From Chrysomallon squamiferum (Eukaryota; Mollusca; Gastropoda; Neomphalida; Peltospiridae), in the NCBI GenBank assembly GCA_012295275.1, contig CM022670.1, positions 24,192,255-24,256,254 of the forward strand: 64,000 nucleotides of DNA, in the 5' to 3' direction. Shown in pieces: positions 5,916 to 64,000 of the stretch (position 1 is the stretch's first letter; each line of letters begins with the position of its first letter). Under the pieces are notes generated by a model. It saw only the letters and a list, made by a program, of their open reading frames with translations. It was not told where the DNA came from and made no database searches. The position numbers and the translations under genes were made by a program.

Positions 5916-6047
5916 GATGTGGTGGACTCACTGAAGGAAAAGCTGAACATCAAGTGTATCCAGCATTTCAACGTGGTTCTACAGAACATGAAGAACAACA
6001 CAGCTGGCAAAATGACACTCCTAGAAGAACATGAAACACTGGCTGAG
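5916..6047 (+). CDS. FRMPD exon 1 of window: FERM F1 lobe
   Basis: The acceptor is a pyrimidine-rich tract ending in CAG at 5915. The exon encodes 44 residues in phase 0, including [15 protein letters not shown] and [10 protein letters not shown], which match the end of the ubiquitin-like F1 lobe of FRMPD proteins. The donor is GAG|gtcttc, a GT site that matches the consensus poorly after the first two bases. An in-frame stop follows six bases later, so splicing here is needed. Confidence 0.85.
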
Positions 6048-6744
6048 GTCTTCTAGAATATACTGCATTTACAACATTACTACATTATTACTAAGCTATT
6101 ATTATTATTACTATGACTACTACCACTACTATTAGTACATTACTTTCACTACTACTACAACTGCTAAAATAACTGCTGCTATTGCAGCAATTACAATTTT
6201 CACCACCAACATCATCAGTAATAAGAACAACAACAATAAAACAACAATAACTATTAACAACTTCCACTACTGCTAGTACTAATGCAGCTGCTGTTGCTGC
6301 TATTAGTAGTAGTAGTGGTGCTGGTAGTTACAGTGTTATTATATAAGCTACTATGGTGATTAAATAAAATGGATAAAAGTTTTTATTGCATTTGATTTGT
6401 ATGGATAATGAAATTTTCTACAAAACAATAAATACAACACACTTGAAAAAGTCACTTGTGGTAATTGTTTGATGGTTCAGGGTAAATCTGTTGAAGTGTC
6501 ATTAAACACGTAATGACTTGTTTTCAGATTGCTGCTAGACCTGGTGCTCAACACTTCCGATGTCTGTTTCGTGTTACTTATGTTCCACGTGATGCTTATG
6601 ACCTGCTGAAGGAAGATCCCATTGCCTTTGAATACTTCTACCTTCAAGTAAGATGTGGTTTATATCTGTATTATTTATTGTTCTTTTCTGATATCTGTAT
6701 TACTTATTGTACTTTTCCTATATCTTACATCACTACTATACTGT

Positions 6745-6785
<41 letters not shown>

Positions 6786-9700
6786 ATGTGCTAGTTTACA
6801 TAGTAGAAAGATATAAGTCTGCCGTTTTATTAACCCTTATGGTAAGATAGCTGGGTACCCCACAGAAAATAATGTCTTTGTAATGCCAACATGCATTTTA
6901 TTAGTTCTAGAGTTTTAAAGATTGCCCAACTTTGGCAGTGAATAGATGCTGAATCGGGCAGACTGTTGGAAATGTCAGTGTTTGATGGAAAAACTGTAGC
7001 ACATGTGACTAAATTCCCATCCTATGATCCATCTGGGTAAACAGAAATATAGTCATGATACCTGTCTTGAATTTTGATGAAAAATTTATGATATAAAGAC
7101 CCATCTGTATGATCTTTTTTCTAATGCACCAAATCTAGCACAATCTTGGGTGGTTTGAAATTTCAAAGGCAGTAACACAAAATATGAAGTTGTTTCCAAA
7201 ATGTCAGACAAATCAATGTTGGAAGGAGATAAATATTGCTTAATGTCAAGTCCAAAAGTGGGTGTAGCCCCTGGTCTTACATCAGACAACTTCATATATT
7301 TGTTATCAAACACTGTGCTATGTGCAGAATGTTCTAGTACTTCTGAGACAACTTTGAACATCTAGCATTCAAACGTACAAGCTCTCTACAGGTGAAGTCC
7401 TATATGCTCCAAGACAAAATCTAACATGCTGGTTGTGTATCAAATCCAGCACTTGTAAGTAAGACTTTTGTCCAGAAATAAATGTGGTTCTAAATGGAAA
7501 TCTCTTTTCTGGCAAATATTCATATAGACTGTCTTTGTCTTTGAGAATCTAAAGTCATTGACATTGTCCATTGTCCATTGCAAATCTGAAAATCATCAAC
7601 ATATAAAGACCAATCAACACCAGGTTTTAAACACTGAATAATGCTGTTAAATTTTAGAGAAAATAAAGTTATTGACAGGATAATACACTAAGGAGCACCC
7701 ATCTCTTGCAGGTGGGAATCAGAAAATGTAGATCCTATCTGGACTTGGACAAGATCTGTCTTTTTAAAATAATATTTATAAAAATAGAAAGACAACTGGT
7801 TATAGGAAAATTATGGAGGTCAAGCATTATCCCATACTTTCATATAGTGTGATAAGCTTTCTGACAATCAAAAAACATCAAAACAAGATGTTGATTGTGG
7901 ATGAAAAACATTTCAAATCTAATAAGATAATCTGGACCTGAACCCACATTACACATTAGTAAGCAGTTTGTGAGATTCAAGAAACCAGACAAGTCTATGA
8001 CTTCTCATTCATTCCATGGTTTTGCAGATGCATCTTGTCAAGGCAATAGGGTGATAATTAGTAAGAAATACAATTCCTCCAAGAAGTTTTCTTTCTGAGT
8101 CAGACATCCCTGCATGCCTTAGCTTTAGCAGGTGTGTGATAAGCATTCAGGTGGTTCACATTTGAATCTTTTACGGGACCTGAAAACAAATGTCCTTCAC
8201 AATGGATGTAAACAAGGACATGGGATCATGAAATGGCAGACTTGTGCAGATGAATACTCCATAAATGCCAGAATTGATCCCAATTTGTTTTCACCAGCTC
8301 TCATCTTAGAACCTTTTTGGCATGGTGGTCCATCATTCTCCAAAATAACTGGAAAGTGGTCACTACTATAAGGAGAAATCAAAATACAGTGTGGAAGACA
8401 AAGGGTTAAATCTACTGAAGTGAAGATACCATTTAATGAACAAAATTCTCTCCTATATTAATATTATACATTGCATTAGATAAGATTTTATTGTCAAATA
8501 AAGCATGTTTTTATTTATATGCGTTATTTATTGTATTACTCAACTGTGCATTTTTATTTTTAAATTGGAAATGTTTTTGAAATATGTGTTTGTATGAACA
8601 AACATACACATAATATTGGCTGCATAGTTTACAGACATTAATGTTTTGTCACATAAATGGTATTGAAAAATTGTTTCATCTAATTCCATCACATATATAT
8701 TGGCTGCCATAAACTTATAATCATTTTTATTTTGTTTAACTGGTTTTATTGTGGAGTTATTTATGAACAGAAATTATTACTCTTTCAGTAACGAAATATC
8801 AGTTTTACAGTGCAGATGATATTTATGTCCTTTTTGTTTATCATTGGCAGTGTTGCAACGATGTTGTCCAAGAAAGATTTGCCTCTGAGTTGAAGTACGA
8901 TACAGCACTGAGGTTAGCAGCGTTACAGATGCAACAACATGCCATGAGCAACAACTTGACTGGAAAGATCTCAATCAAAACAATTGAGTAAGTATTTTAT
9001 TATTTTATTTCAGAAAATCTATAAATTGTCAGATGTTGATGTCATCACTGAAGACATTATTTGTGATATGAAAGATTTTAATTTACATATATGTTATTAA
9101 AGAAAATATAGATTAAAAATATTATAAGTCCCACAGACATGTCTACACATACACAAAAACAGAAATAGGAAAGGTATGTTTACATACACAAAACTGGGAG
9201 AATCAAAAAGAGAGAGAAAGTAAGAATGAGAAAAAGAAGAGAAGAAGAGGAATAGAGAAAGGGAAATGAATAGAGAGGAAGAGAGAGAGAGAAAGGGAGG
9301 AAGGGATAGGAAGAGATAGAAAGACTGAGAAAAGATATTCAGAGAGAAAGAAAGATAAGCAGAAAAGATAAAAAAAGAATTAATATTTCAAAATGAAAAT
9401 TATTTACTGAATTGAGACAACCTCTGATACCTCTGTTACAAAGTGCAGACAGCTCTGTAATATTCCTGGTACATTAATAACTCAGAACATATTGCTTGTA
9501 CTATTGATCACAAAGTGTCTGGATGGAAGGACACTTCCTAATGGTGTGTTGTACAATCTCCTTAGGGAGATATATGAAATAAAAAATTTATTTTTAAGAT
9601 CTGTTTGTTTTGGAGGAACCTACCTGGTTCCTTCAATGATATTTAATTTACAAAAGAGGAGTTTTACTGAAAAGCACGTATATTATTAAATATGACTATT

Positions 9701-12700
9701 AGTCCAATAGAAATATGCCAAAAGAGGAGTTTTACTGAAAAGCATGTATATTATTAAATATGACTATTAGTCCAATAGAAATATGCCAAAAATGGCTTAA
9801 CCTGAAATTAATTGCAGTAGAATTTTTATTGATTGCTTCTGGTTTAGGGGCTAACTCTGAATATTCATACCAATCTTCTACAAAATCTAGCCAGCAGAAG
9901 TGCCCTAATTTGCACAAATCATAGACCTTACAAATGAAATGCAAGAGACATGATATAATTGCCCAAATTACCTAATATTTATGTATGAGTTAGTTTTCAG
10001 GCAAGATATCTGTAAATGTGTTCCTTTATTGACCATTTTTCCAATGTGGGATGTGAGCTGAAAGTAATTCTGATGATGTTTAGGCTGTTAAAATCTGTGT
10101 GTTTGAGAAACTGATCATTAGAAGAGATAGTATGTAGACATTTGTCATGCAGCATTGACCTACCAGCAACTGATGACATATATCTGCAGGGTGAACTTCA
10201 GAACTGGGAAACAGGTTCCCCTCTGCAACTTCTGATTCTCGGAGTCTAAGAAGGGAAGATGAAAAGACCTTTCACGTGATGAGGCATTCTTGCAGGTTTG
10301 AGTTTGAGCTGACTGTTGTAACTGATCAATGTCAAAGTTATGCAGGAAACTGTGTTGTCCAAAGTACATGCAACAGAACATAGTTTACTATTTTGCCAGT
10401 TCTGTATTGATCACCAGTATTAATGACAGAGACAATACTGTATAGGGCTGCAGCAGCATTGATTCTCCTGGATGTTTTAGGATCTGGGCAAAATGGACAG
10501 AGATGATGCTCAAAAATGTAGGATCATTAAAACCTCTGCTGAACTGACATTAACAGCATTTACAGGTTAAAGGCTGTATACCCAGCTCATTTCTGTTAAG
10601 ATCATTTGAACATAATTTAAGGTATCTACCTAAATCCCTTTGGCTGTTTTTGTTGGATTTTTCACTGACAAGTCACCTGATCTTAAATTCACCACACAGG
10701 GACAGTGTATCATACAGAATGCAAGACATAGAAGAGTTGTGGTACCTATCCTTTTCAGTCTAGGTGTGCATTATTCAAGGTTTTTAATAGACAATGATTG
10801 TTCTTGTCATACATTTTTCAAACTCTGCAACAAATTGTCATTATAGCTACCCAATATGAGATAATTTTGGTCACTTTTATTGCTGACAATGGCGACTATA
10901 ACCTCTGCATATGTGATTGATGTGGAACATACACTAGAGCCCATGACATACTGGGAAAGGCTCATCACTGCTATATGATAAATAATTACTTAAGACCGAG
11001 CTCCAACCTTGATTGTCTTTGAATGATATCTTTGCCACTTTGTCCCAGGAATGACGCAGGCTGTATGCAAGAGTGACCATACTGGAAAATCATCTTTTCA
11101 ATCTGTCCTCATGACTGATGTGGACCAACCAACATATCTTGTGTATGTTCCATTTTGTTTTTCAAGAAGCATAACACAGTTGCAATGCTGAACTTTGATC
11201 AACGTTAATGGTTAAAAGCATGAAAATCATTAATCACTAGGAAAAAAAAGAGAACTTAAGTCAGTAGATTTATATTTGCATGGCTTTTACACACAAATTT
11301 ATCTTGGGTCCATTGAGCACCTCATTAATAACTCAGGTCTTAGGGAAGTGCTTGAATTGATCCATGCCAAAAATGTTTTAGACTACATTCTAAATGGAAA
11401 ACCGTATGCTGTACACTGATTAATGCAGTGTTCAGTGCAATACTTATGTGAGAGGCTTGTGTTTCATGTGTGAAAAAAATTATGACAAATCTTGCTTCTG
11501 CTAGACATTCCCAGTACATATAGTCTGCCCATACCTACATGACAGACATGGAGAATCACTACTTCACAGAATCCACTGAAAGAAAGATGATACCTCTGAG
11601 CTCACTTCTAAGCAGTATGTCAGTAAATTACAATAATTCTACATAGTTTTTGATGGATATTCACAAGGTCCATCCACCAAATATATTACCCATGAAAGGA
11701 GAACAAAGGGAAAAGTTGGTCCATGGGCCTTATTGTCCCCAAAATGGCCCTGAAATAAAAAAAAGGAATAATTCTTTGAAAACACTGTAGTTTTTTCAAA
11801 TGACTTCAGACACAGTGAGATAAACTCATAAAGTTTTTACTTTCAAGTCCAGGTTTGAATGGGTTCTGAGGTCATGAACAAGATAACAAGACTTAAAGAA
11901 GACAATTTGTGTTGTTATGCAAAACCTAAAATTGATTTGATATTGTGAATAATGATAAATTACCTATGAAATATTATGTATCACATTACTTAAATGTCAA
12001 ACATCTGAATCATCACAGATGTCAGTCTGTTCTGTTAATAATATCTTCTGGAATATGGTTTGAGTTTAGTCAAATATGTTTTCTGTGTTATGAAATGTTT
12101 AGAACTATCACATAGTTTAGTGAAAGGATGAAAAGGAAAGTATGAATATGTAATGTTTATGGATGATTTCATTTTTTTTTTTTAATTGAAAGGAATTTAA
12201 TTTAATTTGTTTAAGTTTCTCTGGATTCCAGTTTAGTTCAGTATTATGAGATGTTTAGTATTAACAGACACTTTTTTGAAAAATGTGAATGTGTAATTGT
12301 TTCTAAAGCTTTTTTTTTCTGTTTATAAATATACAGAATGATAACATCATATTTGTTGTTTTTTTTAAAAAGAAAAAAGAAAAAGATTTTGTTAACATCA
12401 TCTGTAATTCACAAATCCTTTATGACACCTTTTATCAGTTTGTCACAAGAAAAAATGCCACAGTCACAGATCTCATTTGCTGATAAGACACTCGAGTGGA
12501 AAACATAAGCTTTTTCCTTACCACCCATCGGAATTGAATGAAGTTTAAATATATTGATCATGGCCCTATGTTCATCATGCCAGTATTGATGGATGAAGAA
12601 GGAATCCCGAATCTCTAGGGAGGATATAGTTTCTGACACTTCTGACCGAAATATCTCTAATTCTGAGTGCTTAGCTCCTAAAGCTGGACTCATATTGCTT

Positions 12701-15700
12701 AATTGAATAATGGAAGAGGGATGAAATGCTTGGGATGTTGTTTAACTTAAACCATTTTTCTTTTGTGTGCTGGCTTCACCGTAATTGATTATCTGCAGTA
12801 AATCTGCCAATAATGTTATCTTTGGGGCCTTTTAAATCCAAAATTTATTAAAAAGTTATATATTTTAATATTTTTTTCTAAAGTAACTGGCTAAATTACA
12901 TTACTTGACATTGGTTTTAAAATGGTTTACTTACCTATATCTTGCATTATGCAGTATTTCTTATGTAATTTGGCTTTTACAGAATTTTAATGTTAAAAGA
13001 AATGAGATTTAGCTTACGTGACAAGAAGCAACCACTTTAAATTTTGTCAAGCTTAAAACATTAATTCCAGTTTGATAGGATTTCTTGCATTTTGTCCTAA
13101 CACAACATTATTTTTCACTTGAAAATTGTGTTCTGAAAATGTATTTTTAATGTTCAGATGTGTACGTTAAGCATTACAATGAATCAACAAATAATGTATA
13201 GCTATTTACACTGAGGCAAATGCATTGAAATTAAGCAAAGTGTGTGAAGAACAGTCAGTTACAAAACTAAATTAATTTGATGATCGATTATATATCAGTA
13301 TTGGAGGAATGTATGATATACCAGTGTAATAGTCTCTTATCCCAATTTAAATCTCGAGTTTATAAAAGTGTTTTTGCAAGTGAAATGACAGTGTGAAGAT
13401 TATGTTCACTTCAGTTCATGTGTGTGCTTTGAGATTTCTTACATTCATGAATATTCCATTGTAAATATGCCCAGTTATAAGAGAGTTTATTTACTGTTCT
13501 CTCTCTTAATGGAGAAAACTAATTTCAAACATAATTTTATTTATTTATTTATTTATTTATTTATATTTTTATTTTTATTTTTATTTTTATTTTTATTAAT
13601 ATTATTATTATTATTATTATTTATTTATTTATTTTTGATAAAGAAAGAAAAGAAATTTGTTTTTATGATAAACATTTCTGATACTAATACTAGTATGTGT
13701 AATGCTGTCACCTCAGTTCATGACACACTGATCCATTTCATGAATAAATGAATAATTATTTGCATAATGGCACCTCAGTATATTTTATTATAGATTGCTG
13801 TTAAGTTCAGTCACTGAGAGTTAGCTTTTTAGTAAATATATAGATCTTTTACTTGTTCTTACTGATTTTGTCCTAGTGAATGACAGCAACAGAGTTCCTT
13901 TGTCTTGTCATTTTAGATTTATTTTTGAAGTAGTAAATAAACATTTATAACATTTTTTGTTTGAGTTCATTTGTTTTCTAAAAAGATTAAATTATAAAAG
14001 GCTGTGTATGTTTTGTTCTGTATATGAAAATATGAACAATAAAAGATTTCTTGATAATAGTAATCAGACATAAATATGACAGCAATAGGTTTCTTTTTTA
14101 ATATTTTAATTTAAAAATCACAGACTAGTTATCTAATAAACTGTTATTTTAGAAATATTTAGAGGTGTTGTTAAACACTGATTGTGTTAATTGCAGAAAG
14201 AACTGTGGTCTGGAGAAGTTTGTGCCTCACAGTCTGCTAGAAAACATGAAGGGCAAAGAGCTGCGCAAGATTCTGAGTCAGTACATGAAGATGAACCAGA
14301 ACCTGACAGCTCCAGGACAGAAACAGCTCACAGCTCTGCAGGCCAAGCTACACTACATGAAGATAATCAGTGAACTGAAGACTTTTGGCAGTCGTGTCTT
14401 CATGGTCACATTGCTGGTAGAGGTTTTATAAACTTTTTTTATCTTTATGATCATTATCATAATCATCATCTTCTAATTATTATTCAGTATGCTTGCATTG
14501 TTCAAAAATATGTGAATATTTCTCTGTGTTTATCACATTTTAATATCACATTCTTGTTTCAGGATAAGAAAACCGAAGCAATGGTTCTGGTTAGTCCCAA
14601 GTCTGGAGTCAGTGTTGTGACCAGTATCAAATCATACTCAGTGAGTGACTTGTAATATCATTTTACGTGTATTCATAGAAAACATTCTAGTTAATTCTGC
14701 TTCTTAAACAAGGACAGATATATAGTCAATAAAAAAAATAAGGTTATGCACCATCCATTAGTTGCAGTCTTATTCAAATTTCAAAAGACTAATTAGTAAA
14801 ATGATAAAACCTTTATACAAAACAACAACAGAAGTGAATAAAGTGTTTATTAGGAATCAAATAAGTAGTTGATTACATCACATTTGTAGTTGTCATGTGC
14901 GTATTTGAAAGCCAATACTGTGTGCAGAGAAAAGAAGGCTGAACAACTTTGTCAGTACAAAGCAAGGCAGAATGAAAAAAGGTACCTAGCACTATCAGGC
15001 TGGCCTCGACCCACTGTCACTCAATAACATGCATTCCTCACTGCTGGTACACTAAGCTTCATGCTTTGAATTAACCTCCAAATAGCTGTTGTGGGACCAA
15101 CACCCATTCCTGATGTACAGCAGCTTCAAGGATGGCTATTGCTATGTGAGGCCAAGCATTGCCATTTATGTGCACAGTTGTTAGGGATGGTGCTCAGTGA
15201 TGTATATCCCTGTTAAGCATTGTTTGCAGTTTGCATCTATAACAAACATATCCCACCACTTTGATGAGCAGGCTGAATGTGTTTAGGTGAAAAGTGACTC
15301 TAATCCTGACTAGAACTAGACTATCAGTAACTCACAGTAGCATTCAACACTCATCTGAACAATGGATCCTCTTCCAAGAACCCAAGCTGAATTATAGACA
15401 GCAGAAAAATGACAACAAAAAGTTGATTTGTGAACTTGTAGAACCATATTATTTTGGTGGACCTTAGGGAATATTAACCTGTTGCACTGACATTGCAGAC
15501 TAAAATGTATCATTGCTTGTAAAGCAAGTTATTTTTTATTTTCCTTTCAAGCCAAAACATTATTCATATACAATTTAGGTTGTACTTAACTTTTTTTGCT
15601 ACATATATCTACAAAGTACATCAGCTATCATGTCTAGTAAGTATTCAAATATGATATTTACAGATGCATTTATTTGAAATACATGAATATATGTTATTTG

Positions 15701-17008
15701 TTTTCTTATAGGTTTTTTTTGTTTTTTTTTAAATAAAATTATTATTTCGTTTTTGGTTGATTTTAATTTTTGGCATATTCAAACCTAAAAACACCTGCAT
15801 TTGTATGTTTTATGTTTTCATTTGTAACATGTCACTAAAATGTAAGCCAATCTTTGAGAAAATGTCAAGATAACTTAGCACTTTTATAAAAGTCTTCTTT
15901 GCATTTTTTTTAAAAATCTTCAAGGTTTAATTTTTTTTTCTCTTGTGACAATCTTCTTACATTGATTTTTGTGTATGTGTGGTATGGCCACTGATGTGTT
16001 ATGTAGTTCCTTTCTATAAAATTCTATAAATCTTAACTGTTCTGAATTTTTTCCAGGCTCATCAGTTTGTAATGTGAAAATAGATAACTTTAAGATAGTT
16101 TATAAACTTTATCATAATTTTGTTAAGTCATATATAATGCGAAGAAAACTAAAGTTACTACAATATGAATTTAATCTGAATTCTTTTAATTATTAACATT
16201 CAAATTATTTATTTATTTAAGCTCACACAGTTAACAGATTTTGAGCACATTGAAGCCATCAAGGTGACTAAAGAAGGTGAAAATCTGCAGAGGGTTGACA
16301 TTAAGGTCAATGGGAAACAAGAGGTGAGTTACTTGTTTAAACAAACTCACTGAGACAGATCACAAGACTGGGGTAATTCCCATGCCAGCCAGGACATTAA
16401 AAGCAGTTATTAAAAATTGTGATATGAGATTTCCTACCTGTAAAGTGCTGTTAATAAAGAATATCTGACATCTAATAATTAACTAAAAACAATGATAATG
16501 ACTATGAACTAAGTGTAAACAAAAGATTTTATATCGTTGATGCCAGATACTTGTTTAGATAATTGTTTTAGTTTTTTCTTCTGTGGATGAAACATACTTA
16601 AAAAAAAAAAAATAATAATAATAATAATAATAATAACAATAATAATAATAATAATATATATGGTCTCATTATTTATATTTCACATGATAATGCATAAATA
16701 AGGTATAGGTACAGTTTGAAAAAAATATGGGTTGGCAGTGTTTCATAAACTGAGTCTTTGTGAGAACTATATATTTTTTATTTACAGGATATATCTTTGG
16801 GCCTGCTTACTGAAGATGCTCAGAATTTTGTTTGTATGTGCGAAGGATATTTCCACATCTTTGTGGACAGTGATAAACAAATTGTAGAGAGAACACTTGG
16901 CAAATACACCTCAGATCCAGATGGTAAATTAATACTCTATATAAACCTGCTTCCATTATGGAGATGTCTGTTATGATAATTAATGTTGTTGTTGTTGTTT
17001 TGTTATTG

Positions 17009-17070
<62 letters not shown>

Positions 17071-18795
17071 TATATTTTTATTTTAAATTTAAAGTAGAAA
17101 ATGTATGTTTGTGTGTGTGTGTGTGTGTGTTTATTTGTGTGTCTGAGAACATAAGTCTAAGTATGCTTACTCAAAGGAAACCAAAAACATAATTATATCT
17201 GTGAACATAAAACCCATTTTGCTTTATGCAGTGTGTTAAACATGACATTGATATTCTTCTAAACAATCCCTTGAATGTTTTTTATGTATTTGATTAAGGT
17301 TTTACTTGTGTTTTATAGATTTGGCTTGAGATCAAATTACAGAAGTCAAAATCTAGGTCAAATTATTAAATGCTAACATATTCAACTTCAAGTAAACAAA
17401 TATCTTACATTGTATGCAGTATTCAGGAAGTTATGTATTCTATTACTATATAGAATATATGGGTGTTTTTTTGTTTTTTTGTTGTTGTTTTTTTTTTTGT
17501 TTCTTCAATGAGTTTGAGGTTTATTTAAGTATATGACTTTTAAATTTTTTTTTTTAGTTAAAACATGTCAGTTTACTGCACATCTGGTTTCTTTAATTCA
17601 CTCAGAGTTTCATACATAACCAAGCATTAATTTCATATCAAAGACAGATGCATATATATGCATGTACACATACACAGACACACAAAACAATAGCAGTAGC
17701 AAGAGAAGTCTTTACTGCAAAAATAAGTTAAGAGATAAAATAAAACTAAACCAGCAAAAGAAGTACTGAACTGATTTAATTGCATCTGATCCATGACTGG
17801 TGTTTAAAGAATATGTATAATTTATGATGACAGTAAAAACCCACTCCTCTCAAGTCCATCCCAGCCATAGATGACATGTTGTGCATGCTACAACTTGCTG
17901 CTTGTTGGCACACACTGAATGAAACACTTCAGATCTATGACTTTTCTCAAGTACAAAGTGATTATTTAGTTTACTTCTGACTTGTTAATCAGTGTCAGGT
18001 AGTTACTCTTGCTTGGAAGACCTTGGTACCACCATGTTTGTATCTCAGACATAAATCTTCTACTTGGAGGTAATTATCTGTGTGTGTACTTCATTATTGA
18101 ATCTTGATGGTATAGTTTTAATTTCCTGTTTTCTTTTTTTTTGGTTTGAGAATTCAGTAAACAGTTTTGTTACAGATATAATGGGCAAGGCATCAAATTT
18201 CATTGGTATTTGCTGTCAGATCATGGTTGATGTAATAATGTATGAAAATGCAATTTAGTGTTTACACAACCGAATTGGTTGGTTTAACTTTATGGAAATA
18301 GGTTTCATTTGACTTTTCTTTGGGTTTTTCTAAGTTACCTGTGAATAAGTTGGAAATGTTTTGCAACCAGCATAATGGACATTATTCCTAAATAGAAAGA
18401 ATACTTATAAATATTTGTGTAACAGGTACACCTATGTGGGTATTACGCTGTAACAAGGCTGAATCATCTAAAAATGACAAATATCTAAAAGGTTAAGCAT
18501 TCCATTTGTTTACAGTCATCCAAAGGTTATAAAATATTATGATGAATATAAATGTGACTTTTAACACAGGTAAATAAAGAAATTGGTAGATATTATTACC
18601 TTTGATGAAATCTGTTAAAAATCTGTATTATCCATACTGAACAAAATTCTATGGATTTAACATTGAATTTAAACATTGGAATGGTCAGAAATAATGGATA
18701 CGGGTGGCAGCGGGACATGGTCACAGATTTGAGAGAGAAAGTGAGAGAGAGAATGAGAGAGTGAGTGAGTGAGTGAGTGAGTATGTGAGTGTGTG

Positions 18796-18891
<96 letters not shown>

Positions 18892-21800
18892 GTTTAATTA
18901 GTCATCAGTATTGATAGTTAAGTGATATATTTTTTCCCTTTCCAAACAGTACCTCCTTATGCTAGTAAACACAGAGTGTTGGCTGCTCCTTGGACGTACC
19001 CAGATGATCTTGTCTCAGAGATAATAGAACCTGATAATGCTGATGAAAATGGCCAAGTTTCAGATGATGAAAAACTAATAAATCTGGCACAGCCTCCACC
19101 TTCCTATGTCAGAAACAAAGATTTCCTTGCTGATGGGAAAACTGAAGAAACAGAATCACAAGAGACTGTAAGAACAAATTTATTTGGTTTTGGTTTTTAA
19201 ATAATTTATTTGTTAGCTCTTTTTTTTTCCTTTTCATTATATTCTTTAAAAGTGTGCAAAGAGAATATAACATATCATAAAAATTTGTTTTCTTTTTGTG
19301 TTAAGTCAGTTACATTACACTTAAGATCAAATGTTATATAAGAGTAGTATAGGAAGATGCAAATGAAGACTTTACCTTCTTCGTTTATAAGATTTTTGAC
19401 TTGTAATATTTTTTGATAAATTATTTAAATCTAAAGAACTAAATGATTAAAAAATGAATCCTAATATCTGCAGTACCAAAGCAAGTTATAAAAAAACGAA
19501 TATACGTGAAATTTGTTCTACAGACTAAGGAAACCAATGAAACCATTGATCTTATCAAACCTGTCCAAAACGGACATTCTGAAGCTGACTCTGTAAGCGG
19601 CACTGTACTAAATGGTAGCATTTATGAAGAGGAAGTGACATCATTTGGTGTGACAGCTCAAGACCAGCAGCAGGAATCTGAGATGGAGTCCAGTGTAACA
19701 GCCAAACCATACAGGACAGTACTGGATGTTTCTGGTAACAACAACTCTGTTGCAACACAGCAGAAAGCAATCAGCAGTCTGCCAGATGAAGTTCCATCAG
19801 ACACTGACAGTGGATCTGGCACAGACATCGAGCGGAAGCCACTGCTGACTCCATCTGCTGTGTTGATGAATGGGGATTCACAGGCCAGTTTTGATATAGA
19901 AAGCAGTGATACAGACAGCTGGGGTACTCCAAACAGCAGTCCAGCAAAGACAAGATTAGGCAAAGAAAGTCTTGGTGAGAAGTATATCTTATTTGTCATG
20001 AAGTAAATTTTGTTGTATTTTCTGATAATGCTGATTAAAAGTAAATCTCATATACATATCTTATAGAAGTAGAGGGATTTAGTTATGAGTCCTAATAATG
20101 GAAGATTGTGGTTTCATCACCTGGCACTGCCTCTTACCAACAGCTAAGCCACTGACAAGTGTTTTAAAAATACTTGTGTATCAATCTTTTAGTCAGTGTA
20201 ATAACAGTGCCATGATCCATAAAAGCTTAAGAACTTCTTGATCTAACATCTTAAAAACGTAGCATTATTCTTTCTGGACACTTCTGAGGCATTCTGACAA
20301 TGGAAAAGATAAAAACTTTAAAAGAAAAGAATTACAGTCTCCTTTCATGAACTTTTATCAGGGAATATATTACTGATCATTCCATCCTCATCTTTGTTTC
20401 CAAGTATTATTGTATTACGATCACTTCATACTAATAAATGATTATACATCTTAAGCTACAGAGCAGAGGCAGAAGCCCTATACCAAAACCTGCTACAATT
20501 TGTGAAGGAAAATAAAAATCTAATTTTTGTTATTGTAATTTTACCTAACCATCAACAATATGTTTCTGATAAAAATTTAAAATTTACCAAATGTTTGTTT
20601 TTTCCTGTTTAGGGTTTCAGAGTTTTGGTCTTCACAATCCAGATTTCAGCTGTTCAGCTGTAGATCTTCAGCACACTGCAGAAACTTTTGGTCTGTGCAG
20701 TCCTGACATGATTCCTCCAGATCTCTGGACATCCAATCCAAACCAGCTGAGCACCAAAGGAATTTGCCTCGATCCAGACATCATTGGTAATGTGTTGTGT
20801 GTCTGAATATTTTAAAACATATAAGTATACAAATTATAAAATTATATACTGTGGTATGTAGCCTCATCAGTAAAGAAAATAACTAGAGCTAAAGCATCAT
20901 CAGGGTTTTTTCATCATTTTGTATGGCAGTTCAGCTTGTATTCAACTCTGGACTGTAAAACAATGCTGAAAATGAAGTTTCAGTATAGTCACTGATTTTT
21001 TTTTCAGTGCTAGAGGTGTTGTTCTGTGATGCTTTCATTTTGATCAAATGAAAATTTCTTAAATGAATTTATATTTTGAATGCATGAACCATATTAAAGG
21101 ACTGTATAAAAAAATTAGGGTTAAATGAATTATTTTGGGTGATTCAAAATAATTTTTTAACATACTTTTTTAAAATGTGTGTGTGAGTGTGTGTGTGTGT
21201 GGTGTGTGTGTATGTGTTTCAATATATTGCTGAACATGTGTATTGTTACAAATCCTTAACCAGTAAATTCATGTAATGTTATCTTTATGTAAATTAAAAT
21301 GTATTCAATCTTTCTTTCATTTTTCTTTTCACAAAATAATCTGCATAAATAAAATTAACTGTTTAGCATTGAACAGTTACAAATGATTACAATGTGCTTT
21401 AACTTGCATTTCAAATTTACAGTTATAAATGATTACAATGTGCTTTATCTTGCATTTCAAATTTACAGTTATAAATGATTACAATGTGCTCTATCTTACA
21501 TTTCAAATTTAGTTACAAATGATTACAATGTGCTGTATCTTACATTTCAGATTTACAGTTACAAATGATTACAATGTACTCTATCTTACATTTCAAATTT
21601 ACAGTTACAAATGTTTACAATGAGCTCTTTCTTACATTTCAGATTTACAGTTACAAATGATTACAGTGAGCTCTATCTTACATTTCAGATTTACAGTTAC
21701 AAATGATTATAATGAGCTCTATCTTACATTTCAGATTTACAGTTACAAATGATTACAGTGAGCTCTATCTTACATTTCAGATTTACAGTTACAAATGATT

Positions 21801-24800
21801 ACAGTGAGCTCTATCTTACATTTCAGATTTACAGTTACAAATGATTACAATGAGCTCTATCTTACATTTCAGATTTACAGTTACAAATGATTACAGTGAG
21901 CTCTATCTTACATTTCAGATTTACAGTTACAAATGATTACAATGAGCTGTATCTTACATTTCAGATTTAACACTGTACCCACCTCCCATGACACCTGACG
22001 ATGGCAACATGATTGACTTCACCGACATCGGCAGTGTTTCTCCTCCTGCATTCACTTCTCAAACTTCCCAAGCTCCCACTACAAGATCTACCTCACCTGC
22101 AATTAGTGGTAGTCCTGTACATAGCAAAATAGGTAAAACATTTACTGTGTATCTGTGTGAATGAAAAATACAAAACAGCTAAGCATTAGTTTTGCAGCCT
22201 TAGTTTTGTTTTTTTCTGAAAATATATGTTATAAATAATGTAGTTCAATGGAATTTGGTGCTTTGATTTTGTATGCTATAAATAGCTTCAGATGTTTCTA
22301 AATGTTAATATAAATTTAATTTCATTAAAAAAATTTGATCAATTTTAAATTAGTATTTTGTCGATGTGAATCTGTCTTGTATAGCTAATTTTGAGTTATT
22401 TTGTTTAATAATAGTGGAGTAACTATTGATAATGAATATAACTGACTGTTTTATGCACATTTCAGTGCCAGTGAAGCCTGCAATGCATGGCAGTCCAGTG
22501 AATGCGAGGTTACTACTGAGATCTTCCAGCACTTCAAAACACAGTTCACAGTCTAGTAGTGTTGCTGATGATGTCAGTACCCAGTCTCCTCAGAAGCATT
22601 TTCAAGCAGCAGACTTCCAGCTGTCTCACGATGCCTTGACAAAGTCTGCTAGTGCAGGCCACTGTCCTGACTTCTTTAACAATGACATTGACAAACTAAT
22701 AGCAAAGTTTGTTGTTCCACCACCTCCACCATCAGACTCCTCACTGAAAAGTGGGGACGATGAAGTTGAATCTGCTGAAAAACTGTTTCAGGATCTTGAA
22801 GATGAATTTGCTGCTCTTATCATACCTCCTCCACCAGTGTGTACGCCTAGTGAAGAAGACATTGCTGTTGTTCCTCCTGTCCCCACTAACGATTCAGTTA
22901 CTAATGACCCAAAAGATAAGAATGTTGCACAAACCAAAACCAGTATATTCCGACATAAACATTCTGCCTCTTTAGGTTTAAGTACATCACAGTTAGCTAG
23001 TGGTGACAGAATGAGTTCCTTTGACTCAAAAGACAAGTTGATACAGAGACATTCTGAACCTCCAAATTCTCTGTCTCAGTTAGTCAGAGATCCAGACAAT
23101 CCAGCAAACTCTGCACTACCAGCAGAGTCACCAGCAACAGTGTCAGAAAGGCTGAACAGCATTCTGCAGTCACTACCCACCTTTTGCTCCGTGTCGGAGG
23201 TAACTAAAGAACCATTTGTGAGGACAGGTTCACTTCGAATCAAAGCTTTCAAAGATGTCATGAAATCTAGTGTTTCAACCGTGAATGTTCAAGTTGTCAG
23301 TGGATTCTGTTCTTTGAGAGCTCGGCCAAGCAAGCGCAGCAGCAGTATTGAGAGATTCACTGTGGATGATAGAACAATCAGCAACGAAGCAAGCAATCAA
23401 AGCATGACAAGGGCTCAGTCTTTTGACAGTGTGCAGCAGTCGTCAAACAGCTGCGAACAAAAGGAGATTTCACATTCTGAAAGCTTTGCCTCGCTGAAGG
23501 AAAAATTAAAAGAATATCGTGATGTGTTGTTGAGTCGATCTAACAGTTTTAGAAAAAATAGGTCAAAGAATTCCAGTTCTGATGACAAAACTAAGGTGCA
23601 GAAAAGCAATGGATCACTGCATCGGACAAACTCTTTTTCAGATCTTTTGGAAAAATTTCAAAACCGCCAGACAAACTCCGTAAAAAGTTCAGAGCATTTA
23701 GAAAAAGTGAAACAGAGTTTTGCAGAAGGTGGTTCAAATGCTAATGAGAGTTCAAAAGGTGATAAGAAAACATTTCTGATGTACAGCTCTTTAACAGGAA
23801 GAAGAACACCTTTACGTCCTTCTTTACCGCAGGTAATTATTTACACTCAGATAACATACTAATTTAGGACAAAGTTTATTACACATTTTATCTTTTTGTA
23901 TCCATAACTGCTCAGATGAATTTTATTATTATTATTATTGTATCAGAGAAGAGATTTTTTCAGCAAAGAATTTTTTAATAAAAATATCATAATGAAAGTA
24001 TAATTCCAAGTTCAGCTTGGTAAAACTTGCAGTAAAATGAAATTATTATTTGAAGCTGATTGATTTGTCAAAATATAATAATAAATACATTAAATCAATT
24101 TATTTTTAAATATAATGATTTTAGAGAAGAGTTAAATATTTTGATTTAAATAATACATATACAAAAGTATATGGCAAGATACTGTTATTAAACAAAATTA
24201 TTTAAAATTTTACTTTAAAAGAACAATAAATAAATAAATAAAGTATTACTCAAGTGGTTTCTGTGGCCTGAAAAACTCCATTTTAATACAACACTGTGAT
24301 TAACATAACAAAAATCTGTTTTTCAGCCACACAAAAGAATTCAAAATGTTTAAATATTAACATAAAATGTAGACATTATGAAACCAATCCCTGAAATATT
24401 TTTCTTAATCTGCAGCGACGTCATACTTACCCATTTAGAAAAAAGGTTAGTTTGTATGGTGGGTTGCACAGATTTACCATAACCATGACAACACACCATG
24501 CAGTGATCACATTCATTTTTTACACTGGAATGAAAGCACATTAACTGACATTTTGAAAGTTTGATTTTGCACAGAATATTGAGAAATCTCCATACTAATA
24601 GAAATTTTGTTTTGGTTATTTTATTTTGTATATAACATCAAAGTTTTTAATTTTATTTATTTTTAGTTTAGATCTTGTCTTTAATTGCTTTGGTTGTTAT
24701 TTTATATAATAATATAACAACAAAAATTTTAATTTTATTATTTTTTATTTTTAGTTTAGACTTTATTATTCATTTTGGTTAATTTATATAACATCAAGAT

Positions 24801-33623: not shown

Positions 33624-35376
33624 GACTTAATGTTATTATTACTGCTATTACCACTACAACTGTCACTATTATTGTTGTTGTTGTTATTAACAATTTATTA
33701 ATTAAATTACTTGTTGCATATTTTCTGTTTTAAAGGATTGAAGAACACAATCTTCATATGAATTCAGCCATTTCAAAAAAATAATTTTCTTTTATCATAT
33801 TCAGAGAAAGATTTGACTTTTAATTTATTTTATTTAATGTGGCTGTTACCTGAATAATCTACTTTAGTGTTTAAATGTTTTTTGTATTTTCAAAACTTTG
33901 TCAGATGTAAACACATCATTTTAAGGTTATAAACATTACATATTAATTGCTATTATTTTTATTAAGAGGGACTGTTTGAAAAGTGTTTTTATAATATAAA
34001 AATCTTTATTGAGAAATCACTAATTGTACAAAACTACTTCAACAATTATGAATTCTATAATAAATAAATTGTGTTATTACAGTATATTATTAATAGCATT
34101 GATTTATAAAAACAATTTTAAAATTATACAAATTTGGATAATCTTCATTTATGTTATTATATAATTATAATGTATTTTTCAGTTTTATATCAGTGCTCTA
34201 AACAAAATATTTTTTCTAAAAAATAATTTTATTGTCTTTTTATTTTAAATAGAGAAATGAATAAAATAATTTTTATTTTTATTATTACCTCTCATTCCAG
34301 AGCAAAATGAGAAAAAGCGGTCCTCTGAAGGCCTTGTCCACGGTTTTTGTGTCCGAAGACAAGAACATTACAAAGGGAAGCTACTGCTTGAAAGAAAACT
34401 ACACACCAAAAGTTGAGGAGAATCCAAAAAGCAGGAAGAAATCTCGCAGCAAAGATGACTCGGCCATGCTGAAAAAGAAAGACAAAATGAAGGCGAATCC
34501 TTATGCAACGATAAAAATGTGGCGACCAATAACTATGACAACAAGCGTATCACAGGACGAGAATGTGTATCAGAACTTCACCAATTTTGACAGTCTGAGA
34601 GAAATGTCTGAAGCTCAGACCAGTGCTTCAGCTGAACAGATTTCAGAAGAACCTAACCCAACCAAGGAACCAGTGGGTCTTGAGAAGACAGAACTGTCCG
34701 AAACAGCAGTTAAAAGTGTTGGGTCGTTACCGAAATCAGGTGATTTCACAACACTGAATGGCAGCATTGTGTCAGGGGACCCTGTGGCTCCTCCAGACTG
34801 AGGAAAGGATCTGTTGCAGACAACAGTTTTTCCCTTGTCAGTGACACAGTGACGGATTCTGTCAAGTACGTTCTGTCTAAGTCTTACGGCACTGATGGAT
34901 TCGAGTCAGCCACACAAGATGTTGAAAGGTTACTGGACGACTTGAAGGTCACAATGAATTCGCTGAAGACCTCACGAATCGAGCACAAACCGAGACAGTT
35001 TGAAATGTGCAAGGAGGAGCTGATGAATCAGACGAAGCTGTTTGTGAACGATTCAAAAATGCTGGTGAGCAGTGCCACTCACACTCGCAAAGAGCTTGCT
35101 GAAAACTTGCACTGTGGGATACATTCGCTGGCCCGAATTTTCTTGCACTCCCAGGCAGTCATGGTCATGATGGAATCGCAGCATCTTGGTCAACATCTGG
35201 GTGCTGAAGTCATCAAGGTCTCCAATGCTTTCAGGAGCACAGTCATTGCTGCCAATGCTGCTGTCGGCAAACCCATGCAGGACCCACACATGAAGTACTT
35301 GATGCAACAGGCAACAAACTTGGCATCACTGCTAAGCGTGTTGATAAAAACATTAAAGACCCTGGAAAGCAAATAA
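5916..35376 (+). CDS. FERM and PDZ domain-containing protein, FRMPD1/3/4 type, 5'-partial gene (14 exons)
   Basis: Fourteen coding exons join in frame into about 1,480 residues. Residues 1 to about 305 are a FERM domain entered inside the F1 lobe, with family hallmarks EKLNIK, the F1/F2 linker [19 protein letters not shown] and [12 protein letters not shown]. The rest is a low-complexity, serine-rich tail with two PPPP clusters, then a helical C-terminal region. In vertebrates FRMPD4 (Preso) is a postsynaptic scaffold that binds PSD-95 and Homer, and FRMPD1 binds AGS3/LGN-type regulators; a cortical or synaptic scaffold role here is inference. Exon phases are 0,0,2,0,0,0,1,0,1,1,1,0,0, all compatible. 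The PDZ domain and start codon are missing, so upstream exons must lie before the window. The last exon carries a one-base frameshift. I cannot tell which vertebrate paralogue is closest; an invertebrate gene may be equally related to all three. Confidence 0.9.
6080..6345. repeat. degenerate trinucleotide-rich tract (ATT/ACT/GCT)
   Basis: Intron sequence just after exon 1, made of runs of attatt, actact, gctgct and agtagt in changing order. No coding potential is supported. Confidence 0.6.
6528..6647 (+). CDS. FRMPD exon 2: FERM F1/F2 junction
   Basis: Forty residues in phase 0 between a ttttcag acceptor and a CAA|gtaagat donor. The protein reads [20 protein letters not shown] then [10 protein letters not shown], the well-conserved F1/F2 linker and first F2 helix of the FRMPD family. 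Confidence 0.92.
6749..6784. repeat. (TG)n microsatellite
   Basis: About 18 TG units, 100 bp into the intron after exon 2. Confidence 0.95.
6840..8400 (-). mobile_element. decayed non-LTR retrotransposon (I/Jockey-like LINE), antisense in a FRMPD intron
   Basis: Read on the minus strand, broken frames show the expected order of a LINE ORF2. The end of the endonuclease is SSDHFPVIL (about 8340-8373). Then come the reverse transcriptase motif [14 protein letters not shown] (about 8017-8065), the catalytic box LYVDDF (about 7595-7612) and an RNase H remnant VYPDGS.DGN (about 7018-7050). Stops and frameshifts are frequent, so it is inactive. The RNase H points to the I/Jockey group; the exact clade is not resolved. 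Confidence 0.8.
8851..8987 (+). CDS. FRMPD exon 3: FERM F2 lobe
   Basis: Begins directly with [20 protein letters not shown] after a tcattggcag acceptor, and ends in phase 2 at GA|gtaagt. CNDVVQERF and RLAALQM are the most recognisable F2 motifs of FRMPD1/3/4. Confidence 0.93.
9194..9380. repeat. polypurine (GA-rich) tract
   Basis: Nearly 190 bases almost free of pyrimidines on the + strand, built from imperfect GAGA, GAAG and AAAG units, just downstream of exon 3. Such tracts can adopt triplex (H-DNA) forms; that is general knowledge, not shown here. Confidence 0.75.
9651..9791. repeat. 68-bp tandem duplication, two copies
   Basis: The block starting CAAAAGAGGAGTTTTACTG at 9651 recurs at 9719 with one visible substitution (CACGT to CATGT), so the duplication is recent. 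Confidence 0.95.
10400..11760 (+). mobile_element. decayed copy of a repetitive invertebrate ORF family (transposon-like)
   Basis: Broken + strand frames give a run of motifs in the order I associate with a large multi-copy family of uncharacterised proteins in molluscs, cnidarians and other invertebrates. They are [20 protein letters not shown] (about 10730-10790), [13 protein letters not shown] (about 10880-10920), [17 protein letters not shown] (about 11110-11155), [20 protein letters not shown] and [20 protein letters not shown] (about 11280-11400). Stops and shifts are common, so it is dead. The family's mobility class is not certain to me; recognition is from memory of motif order and needs a database search. 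Confidence 0.5.
11761..14196. other. FRMPD intron, no feature recognised except a low-complexity tract
   Basis: The tract at about 13530-13640 consists of (ATTT)n, (TTTTA)n and (ATT)n. A 94-codon minus-strand frame at 12409-12693 has normal composition but no family I recognise and no splice context. Confidence 0.6.
14197..14416 (+). CDS. FRMPD exon 4: F2 lobe end and start of F3
   Basis: The first base completes the Glu codon split by the 5.2-kb intron. Encodes about 73 residues including [20 protein letters not shown], the NQNLTAPG turn, [17 protein letters not shown] and FGSRVF, the F2 C-terminal helices and the entry into the PH/PTB-like F3 lobe. The donor is CTG|gtagag. Confidence 0.93.
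14563..14640 (+). CDS. FRMPD exon 5: FERM F3 strands
   Basis: Twenty-six residues, phase 0 on both sides (tttcag acceptor, TCA|gtgagt donor). Reads [17 protein letters not shown], the beta strands of the F3 lobe. Confidence 0.9.
14641..16221. other. FRMPD intron, possible unrecognised old repeat at about 14900-15530
   Basis: The 14900-15530 part is less AT-rich than its surroundings and looks like decayed inserted sequence. I could not assign it to a family. Confidence 0.35.
16222..16323 (+). CDS. FRMPD exon 6: FERM F3 lobe
   Basis: Thirty-four residues, phase 0. The protein [19 protein letters not shown] continues the F3 beta sheet. The acceptor is an A/T-rich tract ending in aag; the donor is GAG|gtgagt. 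Confidence 0.88.
16604..16655. repeat. (AAT)n microsatellite
   Basis: AAT units with one interrupting AAC in the intron between exons 6 and 7. Confidence 0.95.
16788..16923 (+). CDS. FRMPD exon 7: end of FERM F3 lobe
   Basis: Encodes [20 protein letters not shown] followed by [10 protein letters not shown], the last F3 strands and its C-terminal helix; the family has a similar TAGYYRLLVDS-type segment here. Ends in phase 1 at GATG|gtaaat. The FERM domain closes in this exon. Confidence 0.9.
17003..17072. repeat. (ATT)n microsatellite
   Basis: About 22 ATT units in the intron after exon 7, followed by a short (TG)n at about 17110-17130. Confidence 0.95.
18725..18888. repeat. compound (GAGT)n-(GT)n-(GA)n microsatellite
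   Basis: The longest part is (GA)n at about 18818-18888. It ends 60 bp before the acceptor of exon 8, close enough to influence splicing by length change, though nothing here shows that it does. Confidence 0.95.
18950..19167 (+). CDS. FRMPD exon 8: post-FERM linker
   Basis: Starts 60 bp after a long (GA)n array, at a tttccaaacag acceptor, with phase 1 matching exon 7. About 73 residues ([20 protein letters not shown], then an acidic stretch) with no known fold. Ends in phase 0 at ACT|gtaaga. Confidence 0.85.
19524..19974 (+). CDS. FRMPD exon 9: acidic, serine-rich tail
   Basis: About 150 residues, rich in Ser, Asp, Glu and Thr, with [16 protein letters not shown] and [18 protein letters not shown]. 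Both segments look like potential phosphorylation sites. Probably disordered. Phase 0 in, phase 1 out (CTTG|gtgaga). Confidence 0.88.
20613..20786 (+). CDS. FRMPD exon 10
   Basis: Fifty-eight residues, phase 1 on both sides, [19 protein letters not shown] to GICLDPDII. The acceptor is ttcctgtttag and the donor ATTG|gtaatg. It is followed by the intron that carries the amplified acceptor array. Confidence 0.88.
21373..21970 (+). repeat. 46-bp minisatellite made of copies of the exon 11 splice acceptor
   Basis: Thirteen copies of a 46-bp unit, starts about 21373, 21420, 21466 and then every 46 bp to 21924. Each unit contains CTTACATTTCAGATTTA, the acceptor of exon 11 plus its first five bases. 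The last unit is the real acceptor. Nine copies keep the CAG (the fourth and the sixth to thirteenth); copies one, two, three and five read CAA. The far copies also share different variants (ATGTGCT) from the near ones (GTGAGCT), so the array seems oldest at its 5' end and most uniform next to the exon. Confidence 0.95.
21965..22132 (+). CDS. FRMPD exon 11
   Basis: Fifty-six residues, [20 protein letters not shown] and a Pro/Ser/Thr-rich remainder, phase 1 on both sides. Its acceptor (tcttacatttcag) is the last copy of a 46-bp tandem repeat. Only this copy keeps the correct frame: using any upstream copy leads to a stop codon within a few dozen codons. Confidence 0.87.
22466..23832 (+). CDS. 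FRMPD exon 12: large low-complexity exon
   Basis: The longest exon, 455 codons, phase 1 in and 0 out (CAG|gtaatt). Near the start are two related blocks, a FVVPPPPP cluster (22708-22731) and a LIIPPPP cluster (22816-22836), separated by an acidic helix [15 protein letters not shown]. The vertebrate family has similar IVPPPP segments, possibly ligands for WW, SH3 or EVH1 domains. The second half is basic and rich in Ser, with [16 protein letters not shown] and [13 protein letters not shown], typical of kinase target or 14-3-3-type sites. Confidence 0.92.
24605..24960. repeat. degenerate tandem repeat, about 110 bp unit, AT-rich
   Basis: Three to four diverged units, each with TTATTTTATATAA, ATAACA, TTTTAATTT and TTTAGTTTAGA in the same order, in the intron after exon 12. 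Confidence 0.6.
25428..25493 (+). CDS. FRMPD exon 13: short 22-codon exon
   Basis: Phase 0 on both sides between a gatttttcag acceptor and TCA|gtaagt donor. Encodes [20 protein letters not shown] plus LS. Because it is symmetrical and short it could be skipped without changing the frame, so alternative use is possible. The assignment rests on splice signals and phase, since the peptide itself is not distinctive. Confidence 0.65.
27245..27980. repeat. diverged direct repeat pair of about 160 bp
   Basis: The segments 27245-27412 and 27828-27980 share blocks in the same order: GTTTG[A/G]AAG, CCTGAAGT or TCTGAAGT, TTCATCT, CATCACATCCTC-like and GTCAAATCCTG-like text, CAGTCAAACTGTGCA or its variant, and CACATTCATTAACATTCAGTA. 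The origin is unknown; an 82-codon minus-strand frame covering the first copy is not preserved in the second. Confidence 0.6.
28355..28530. repeat. degenerate tandem repeat, unit about 29 bp
   Basis: Five to six imperfect copies around the consensus AATACAATTATATGGAACA with a short C-rich spacer. Confidence 0.6.
34301..35376 (+). CDS. FRMPD exon 14: last coding exon, with a one-base frameshift
   Basis: Follows an 8.8-kb intron at a ctctcattccag acceptor, phase 0. The first part (to the TGA at 34799) reads [12 protein letters not shown] to SGDPVAPPD. The second part is open in the neighbouring frame from 34744 and continues [20 protein letters not shown] to the stop at 35374-35376. Restoring one base around 34794 joins PVAPP to RLRKGS, so one base seems to be missing. 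The second part (about 190 residues) is helical and non-repetitive: [35 protein letters not shown] and [12 protein letters not shown] suggest a helical bundle. Either a sequencing or assembly error, a damaged allele, or (least likely) recoding. Confidence 0.82.

Positions 35377-47027: not shown

Positions 47028-47115
<88 letters not shown>
46425..47115 (+). repeat. inverted repeat element, copy 1, with (TC)n tail
   Basis: About 600 bp (46425-47030) followed at once by a (TC)n array (47031-47115). The same sequence occurs reversed at 59047-59722. Both copies hold an 80-codon frame (46445-46687 here) identical in 77 residues (MRCFMFEQFCFVLQCYRSHR at its start). The frame resembles no family I know. 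The substitution pattern cannot show coding function at this level of identity. Confidence 0.9.

Positions 47116-47118
<3 letters not shown>

Positions 47119-48633: not shown

Positions 48634-48754
<121 letters not shown>

Positions 48755-49504: not shown

Positions 49505-49590
<86 letters not shown>
49505..49590. repeat. (GA)n microsatellite
   Basis: About 43 GA units, the (TC)n arrays of this region in the opposite orientation. Confidence 0.97.

Positions 49591-54110: not shown

Positions 54111-54829
<719 letters not shown>

Positions 54830-60129: not shown

Positions 60130-64000
<3,871 letters not shown>

Follow-up and report, generated by a model that had tools for sequence, protein, structure and literature searches.

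The host gene and its exon junction

Here, we describe a tandem repeat that lies across the boundary between an intron and a coding exon of a gene from the scaly-foot snail Chrysomallon squamiferum (assembly GCA_012295275.1, contig CM022670.1), within a window, meaning the whole analysed stretch of 64,000 nucleotides (24,192,255 to 24,256,254 of the forward strand), to whose numbering all positions below refer. A gene model built by hand has 11 exons, in frame, from 5916 to 23832, and comparison with Gigantopelta aegis revealed an extra exon of 102 nt (16222–16323) that leaves the frame unaffected. The FERM part of the predicted product matches FERM and PDZ domain-containing protein 4 (7byj, E 5e-75), identifying the host gene by homology as FRMPD4-like, and the best homolog of the product is a Gigantopelta aegis protein with 74% identity. 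The exon that follows the repeat begins at 21965 and is the eleventh of the modelled exons (N-terminal exons fall outside the model), as it had been numbered in an earlier note on this DNA. Because the protein sequence over the junction of 20786 with 21965 is the same in the snail model and in the Gigantopelta ortholog, the acceptor at 21965 can be taken as genuine by homology.

A minisatellite in the register of the acceptor

Tandem Repeats Finder (TRF) reports a minisatellite at 21373–21969 with a period of 46, 13.0 copies and 94% matches. Read in the register of the exon, the array consists of 13 head-to-tail units (21374–21969), 46 bp long in 12 cases and 44 bp in one, each composed of 41 intron bases followed by five exon bases and thus spanning a boundary of the real gene. 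The consensus unit, CAGTTACAAATGATTACAATGAGCTCTATCTTACATTTCAGATTTA, ends with the acceptor TTTCAG and then ATTTA, the five bases with which the exon opens. Numbering the units upstream from the real acceptor, which is copy 0, TTTCAG is found in the real copy and in eight of the 12 upstream copies (1–7 and 9), followed in each of these eight by ATTTACAG, while the other four (8, 10, 11 and 12) have TTTCAA. Thirteen 46-bp units, each with the acceptor and five exon bases, are what the earlier note had described, and apart from the single 44-bp unit this is borne out, the match running through ATTTA; its counts of eight CAG and four CAA copies are also right, but not its placing of CAA in the distal copies only, as copy 8 carries CAA and copy 9 CAG.

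Counted from the exon outwards, the units differ from the consensus at 1, 1, 0, 1, 1, 1, 1, 2, 3, 4, 3, 5 and 5 positions, and divergence thus rises with distance from the exon (Spearman rho 0.90, with none of 20,000 permutations as high), which agrees with the earlier remark that the copies nearest the exon are most alike. Adjacent copies are more similar to one another than under random order (p 0.003), copies 1, 3, 4 and 6 are identical, and copy 2 matches the real copy at all but one of its 46 bases. The array is also specific to this locus rather than dispersed. When the whole genome (404,604,130 bases in 22 contigs) was searched with the entire array, one place was returned, the array itself, and a pattern of 34 places with up to three mismatches gave 13 matches, all inside the array, with none for the reversed control. 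The occurrence of the same unit elsewhere in the genome, which the earlier note would have taken as the sign of an ordinary satellite, was thus tested, with no match outside the array. Its claim that the array arose by amplifying the acceptor in tandem is upheld by a unit that spans the acceptor, a gradient that runs towards it and the lack of copies elsewhere in the assembly; on this sequence evidence the array is best described as a private minisatellite whose growth started from the acceptor or went along with it.

Two further ideas about the unit were tried and rejected. Substitutions vary at 2 of the 17 columns at unit positions 30–46 as against 9 of the 29 at positions 1–29, too few to claim selection for an excess conservation of the acceptor columns. 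The idea that the unit came from the sequence around the upstream exon's donor, with which it has the common motif AATGTG, was likewise dropped, the four units used aligning at scores of 5–8, below the mean of 8.7 for a background of 1,708 other 60-bp stretches, all scored with the same one of the four units.

The window holds 92 TRF rows, some of them overlapping, with a period of at least 19 in 15. When 13 of these 15 are compared (the compound rows at 61210 and 62578 were left out), the end of the array lies 4 bp from a modelled exon boundary and the next nearest repeat 15 bp from one, distances that have little meaning further right as exons were modelled to about 35 kb only, without the exon at 16222.

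Splice signals within the array

Acceptor-like sequences were scored with a matrix trained on the 11 other acceptors of the host gene (12 in all), which is small and weak. The real site scores 3.93 and the eight upstream TTTCAG sites 2.51–3.92, within a leave-one-out range for the gene's 12 acceptors of −1.16 to 10.88. A further acceptor-like AG, in ATTTACAG, follows 8 nt past each upstream TTTCAG, and 10 of the 11 ATTTACAG sites score 2.43–3.24. Read by eye, each unit also has a modest pyrimidine tract and, roughly 25 nt ahead of the AG, ATTAC as a candidate branch-point region. Since copy 2 and the real copy are so nearly the same, the choice of the last site, if it is the one chosen, is hardly to be explained by local sequence. 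Four copies additionally contain a donor-like ACA/GTGAGC with a score of 5.39, which falls within the range of the gene's modelled donors. Neither the second AG nor this donor-like site is mentioned in the earlier note. One of the modelled donors, at 6047, has a very poor score and is perhaps misplaced.

A role for structured RNA in hiding the upstream sites was considered and rejected, the array folding worse than its shuffles (z +2.2, with 98 of 100 shuffles at least as good); an Rfam scan of 20000–23000 gave no matches. The top-scoring AG of the intron (TTTTTTTTTCAG, 5.62) is at 21008, 957 bp before the real acceptor, where it opens a possible frame-keeping cassette of 18 nt.

Consequences for the reading frame

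Of the 33 AGs that lie in the array ahead of the real site, 32 bring an early stop when spliced to the upstream exon, the exception being the GAG at 21944–21946, 18 nt upstream of the real site, use of which would add six residues in frame. All eight upstream TTTCAG sites lead to a stop, 77–107 nt past the junction, and therefore the full protein needs the last site. The sequence thus bears out the upstream copies as acceptor-like sites that would disrupt the frame if used. A stop of this kind in the unit's TGA had been predicted by the earlier note, correctly for six of the eight sites, but for the two nearest the exon (21919 and 21873) the stop falls inside the exon. The truncated form that it pictured, FERM with a short tail, has to be revised, as roughly 300 residues would, by our estimate, follow FERM. 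Transcripts with an early stop and exon junctions downstream of it are expected to undergo decay, and because two exon junctions of the model lie 3′ of the early stops, this would be the expected fate of transcripts spliced to an upstream copy. The features discussed are collected in Table 1.

Table 1. Positions in the window of the array, its copies and the neighbouring exons
Feature	Position	Strand	Basis
Minisatellite of 13 units of 46 bp covering the intron's 3′ end and exon bases 1–5	21374..21969	+	TRF, unit alignment, genome-wide pattern matches
Upstream coding exon; donor ATTG/gtaatg at 20786/20787	20613..20786	+	gene model
Downstream coding exon, 168 nt, phase 1 to phase 1	21965..22132	+	gene model, Gigantopelta protein
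Copy 0, real acceptor TTTCAG/ATTTA, 1 base off consensus	21924..21969	+	unit alignment, in-frame junction, orthologs
Copies 1–7, all TTTCAG; acceptor positions 21919, 21873, 21827, 21781, 21735, 21689, 21643	21602..21923	+	unit alignment
Copy 8, TTTCAA in place of TTTCAG	21556..21601	+	unit alignment
Copy 9, 44 bp, TTTCAG kept (acceptor position 21551)	21512..21555	+	unit alignment
Copies 10–12, diverged upstream edge, all TTTCAA	21374..21511	+	unit alignment
Candidate micro-exon of 15 nt between ATTTACAG and GTGAGC, in frame	21651..21665; identical at 21743–21757, 21789–21803, 21881–21895	+	frame scan

Comparison with known boundary repeats

Tandem repeats over intron/exon boundaries that carry splice signals have been described in amphioxus under the name of mirages, in Adh3, troponin C (TnC) and the globins BflGb6 and BflGb9, with a similar case in PGBD5, according to the portions of PMC3087553 and PMC3902484 used here. 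The snail array resembles them in spanning a boundary of a real gene and in the AG/GT splice signals that many of its units contain; its confinement to one locus is a criterion that we have added ourselves and not one taken from the mirage papers. The same arrangement is seen in BflGb6, whose mirage, like the snail array, is at the 3′ end of an intron, with six and three units of 150–160 bp in two haplotypes where the snail has 13 units of 46 bp. Apart from the change from lancelet to mollusc, the snail unit holds only five exon bases, and the array is known from the DNA of one haplotype. In the parts of PMC3087553 on which we draw, the authors take the Adh3 data and their own reverse transcription PCR of the globins to show undisturbed splicing and suggest that introns may be gained by way of mirages, and those of PMC3902484 state that the lancelet Adh and TnC mirages yield no aberrant mRNAs, with PGBD5 thought to behave likewise. 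In the same parts of these papers, the inner units are described as homogenised and the cluster boundaries as excluded from homogenisation.

Two polymorphisms of human CBS are also instructive. In 844ins68 the intron 7/exon 8 boundary is duplicated in tandem, which places near-identical splice sites in cis, as in the snail, and the more distal of the two is strongly favoured, in the passage of PMC2630376 consulted, which speaks of a ‘donor’ although the title that it cites (Romano 2002) refers to 3′ splice site selection; this variant has two copies of 68 bp and was tested on RNA, whereas the snail has 13 units that are read from DNA. The second is a 31-bp variable number tandem repeat (VNTR) at the exon 13/intron 13 boundary, which resembles the snail array as a tandem repeat at an exon/intron boundary but is on the donor side, where that of the snail is on the acceptor side. 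The 31-bp units are said to offer alternative donors. More repeats go with lower enzyme activity, as far as the consulted parts of PMC5188458 and PMC1395315 report.

A probable mirage in a mollusc

We read the array as a mirage, a locus-private minisatellite born from an acceptor and tolerated by its gene through splicing at the last site, and put the probability of this at about three in four. The array, its boundaries, the divergence gradient, its uniqueness in the assembly and its effects on the frame can be followed in the sequence, and the amphioxus and CBS cases offer precedents. The course of events that we infer comprises a mutational route, a preference for the last site together with its cause, and the decay of mis-spliced RNA. 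The 3′ splice site of the intron, with about 41 bp of intron end and five exon bases, would have been duplicated in tandem, and the array would then have expanded, its copies becoming partly uniform through slippage or unequal exchange, with the exon-side copies the last to do so. The spliceosome would mostly join the upstream exon to the last copy, which stands out chiefly in that the true exon, with its donor, follows it (exon definition), and the gene would in this way tolerate the array, with occasional use of an upstream copy giving early-stop transcripts that are likely to be removed by nonsense-mediated decay. The behaviour of the array is most likely harmless, the last site being used with some leak.

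In the open-access literature searched, mirages under that name are recorded from lancelets only, and as far as these searches show, the snail array would be the first in a new phylum, and mirages would then extend beyond the cephalochordates. With nine almost identical TTTCAG acceptors, the last of which alone preserves the protein, the intron also provides a natural experiment on what governs the choice of an acceptor, be it the local sequence, the order of the sites or the exon that follows, and C. squamiferum transcriptome reads exist (as stated in the part of PMC7142155 used here).

Several observations weigh against this interpretation. The edge units of a minisatellite usually diverge, and here the 5′ edge alone does so, the exon-side edge being undiverged next to inner copies of which four are identical; this could be accounted for by constraint on the real acceptor, but also by the polishing of a nanopore assembly. 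The order of the duplication events is unrooted, the units being compared within the snail only, and the genome-wide DNA search skips very common words. The acceptor matrix fails to single out the real site: the 95th percentile for 797 other intronic AGs is 4.48, above the score of the real site, which 6% of them equal or exceed, and within the same intron it is exceeded by two AGs outside the array, at 21008 and at 21188 (4.46). Use of the last site, finally, is something that we infer from DNA.

The nearest alternative assigns the array a function. As an unproductive-splicing switch of variable length, it would send a set share of transcripts to the upstream copies, and its length would tune FRMPD output between individuals or tissues. 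Such a switch would be served by the eight intact, near-identical upstream TTTCAG copies, by the early stop that each brings ahead of two model exon junctions and by the lower enzyme activity reported with longer CBS alleles (PMC5188458, in part), but the closest published structures, the amphioxus mirages, are said in the cited parts of PMC3087553 and PMC3902484 not to interfere with regular splicing. We consider the switch, which the earlier note had suggested and which the analysis leaves unsupported, unlikely, and we have given up the note's label of ‘decoy’ acceptors, which implies a function of which the analysis gives no sign. A shade less likely again is its heritable form, in which each added 46-bp copy would be an extra acceptor diverting a share of FRMPD pre-mRNA to early-stop transcripts or, in the copies with GTGAGC, to in-frame micro-exons, and protein output would fall as the array grew. 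An array of in-frame cassette micro-exons, with ATTTACAG, 15 nt and GTGAGC in four copies adding VTNDY and leaving TTACAAATGATTACA in the transcript between the exons, strikes us as very improbable. The four identical stretches keep the frame, their donor-like score is within the range of the modelled donors, and inserts occur at the same junction in 4 of the 26 best-listed aligned homologs (13 residues in Haliotis, eight in three scallops). Yet nine further frame-keeping candidates lie outside the array (20 in the intron in all), and therefore such stretches arise by chance and carry little weight; the 832 other intronic GTs have a 95th percentile of 6.07, which the donor-like score does not reach, and the peptide has no visible likeness to the mollusc inserts.

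The remaining alternatives concern the array itself. It might be real while its copy number or the near-identity of its exon-side units owed something to nanopore assembly and to polishing with short reads, and the genome was indeed assembled from nanopore reads and polished with Racon and Pilon at an estimated heterozygosity of 1.38%, as given in the available part of PMC7142155; a frame break near 34762–34800 may be an error of this kind. The copies differ, however, by shared variants in ordered blocks, and an array of 600 bp is short for nanopore reads, those below 3 kb having been discarded (PMC7142155, same part). We doubt a partial artefact, while the exact copy number and unit variants carry the caveat of a polished, nanopore-based assembly. 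That an ordinary dispersed satellite came to lie beside the exon by chance is the least credible reading; tandem repeats are common in the window, but neither the pattern nor the whole-array query matched anywhere else, and the unit holds the exon's own first five bases.

Other observations

The mollusc inserts at the junction of 20786 with 21965 are in frame, reading GKGKNVYIDSEIT in Haliotis and ASCKSEMI in the three scallops, and perhaps reflect an alternative micro-exon or an alternative donor in those species. At about 34762–34800 the C-terminal frame of the gene stops (VAPPD*) and the Gigantopelta homology continues in another frame, owing perhaps to a mistake in the assembly or to an overlooked splice. 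In the same gene, a 29-bp repeat of 2.2 copies (6662–6725) begins 15 bp past the end of another exon (6647) and excludes its donor. Long CT/GA dinucleotide runs of 43–58 copies with 100% matches (TRF) occur at 47030–47116, 48637–48749, 49505–49590, 54712–54827 and 60134–60233.

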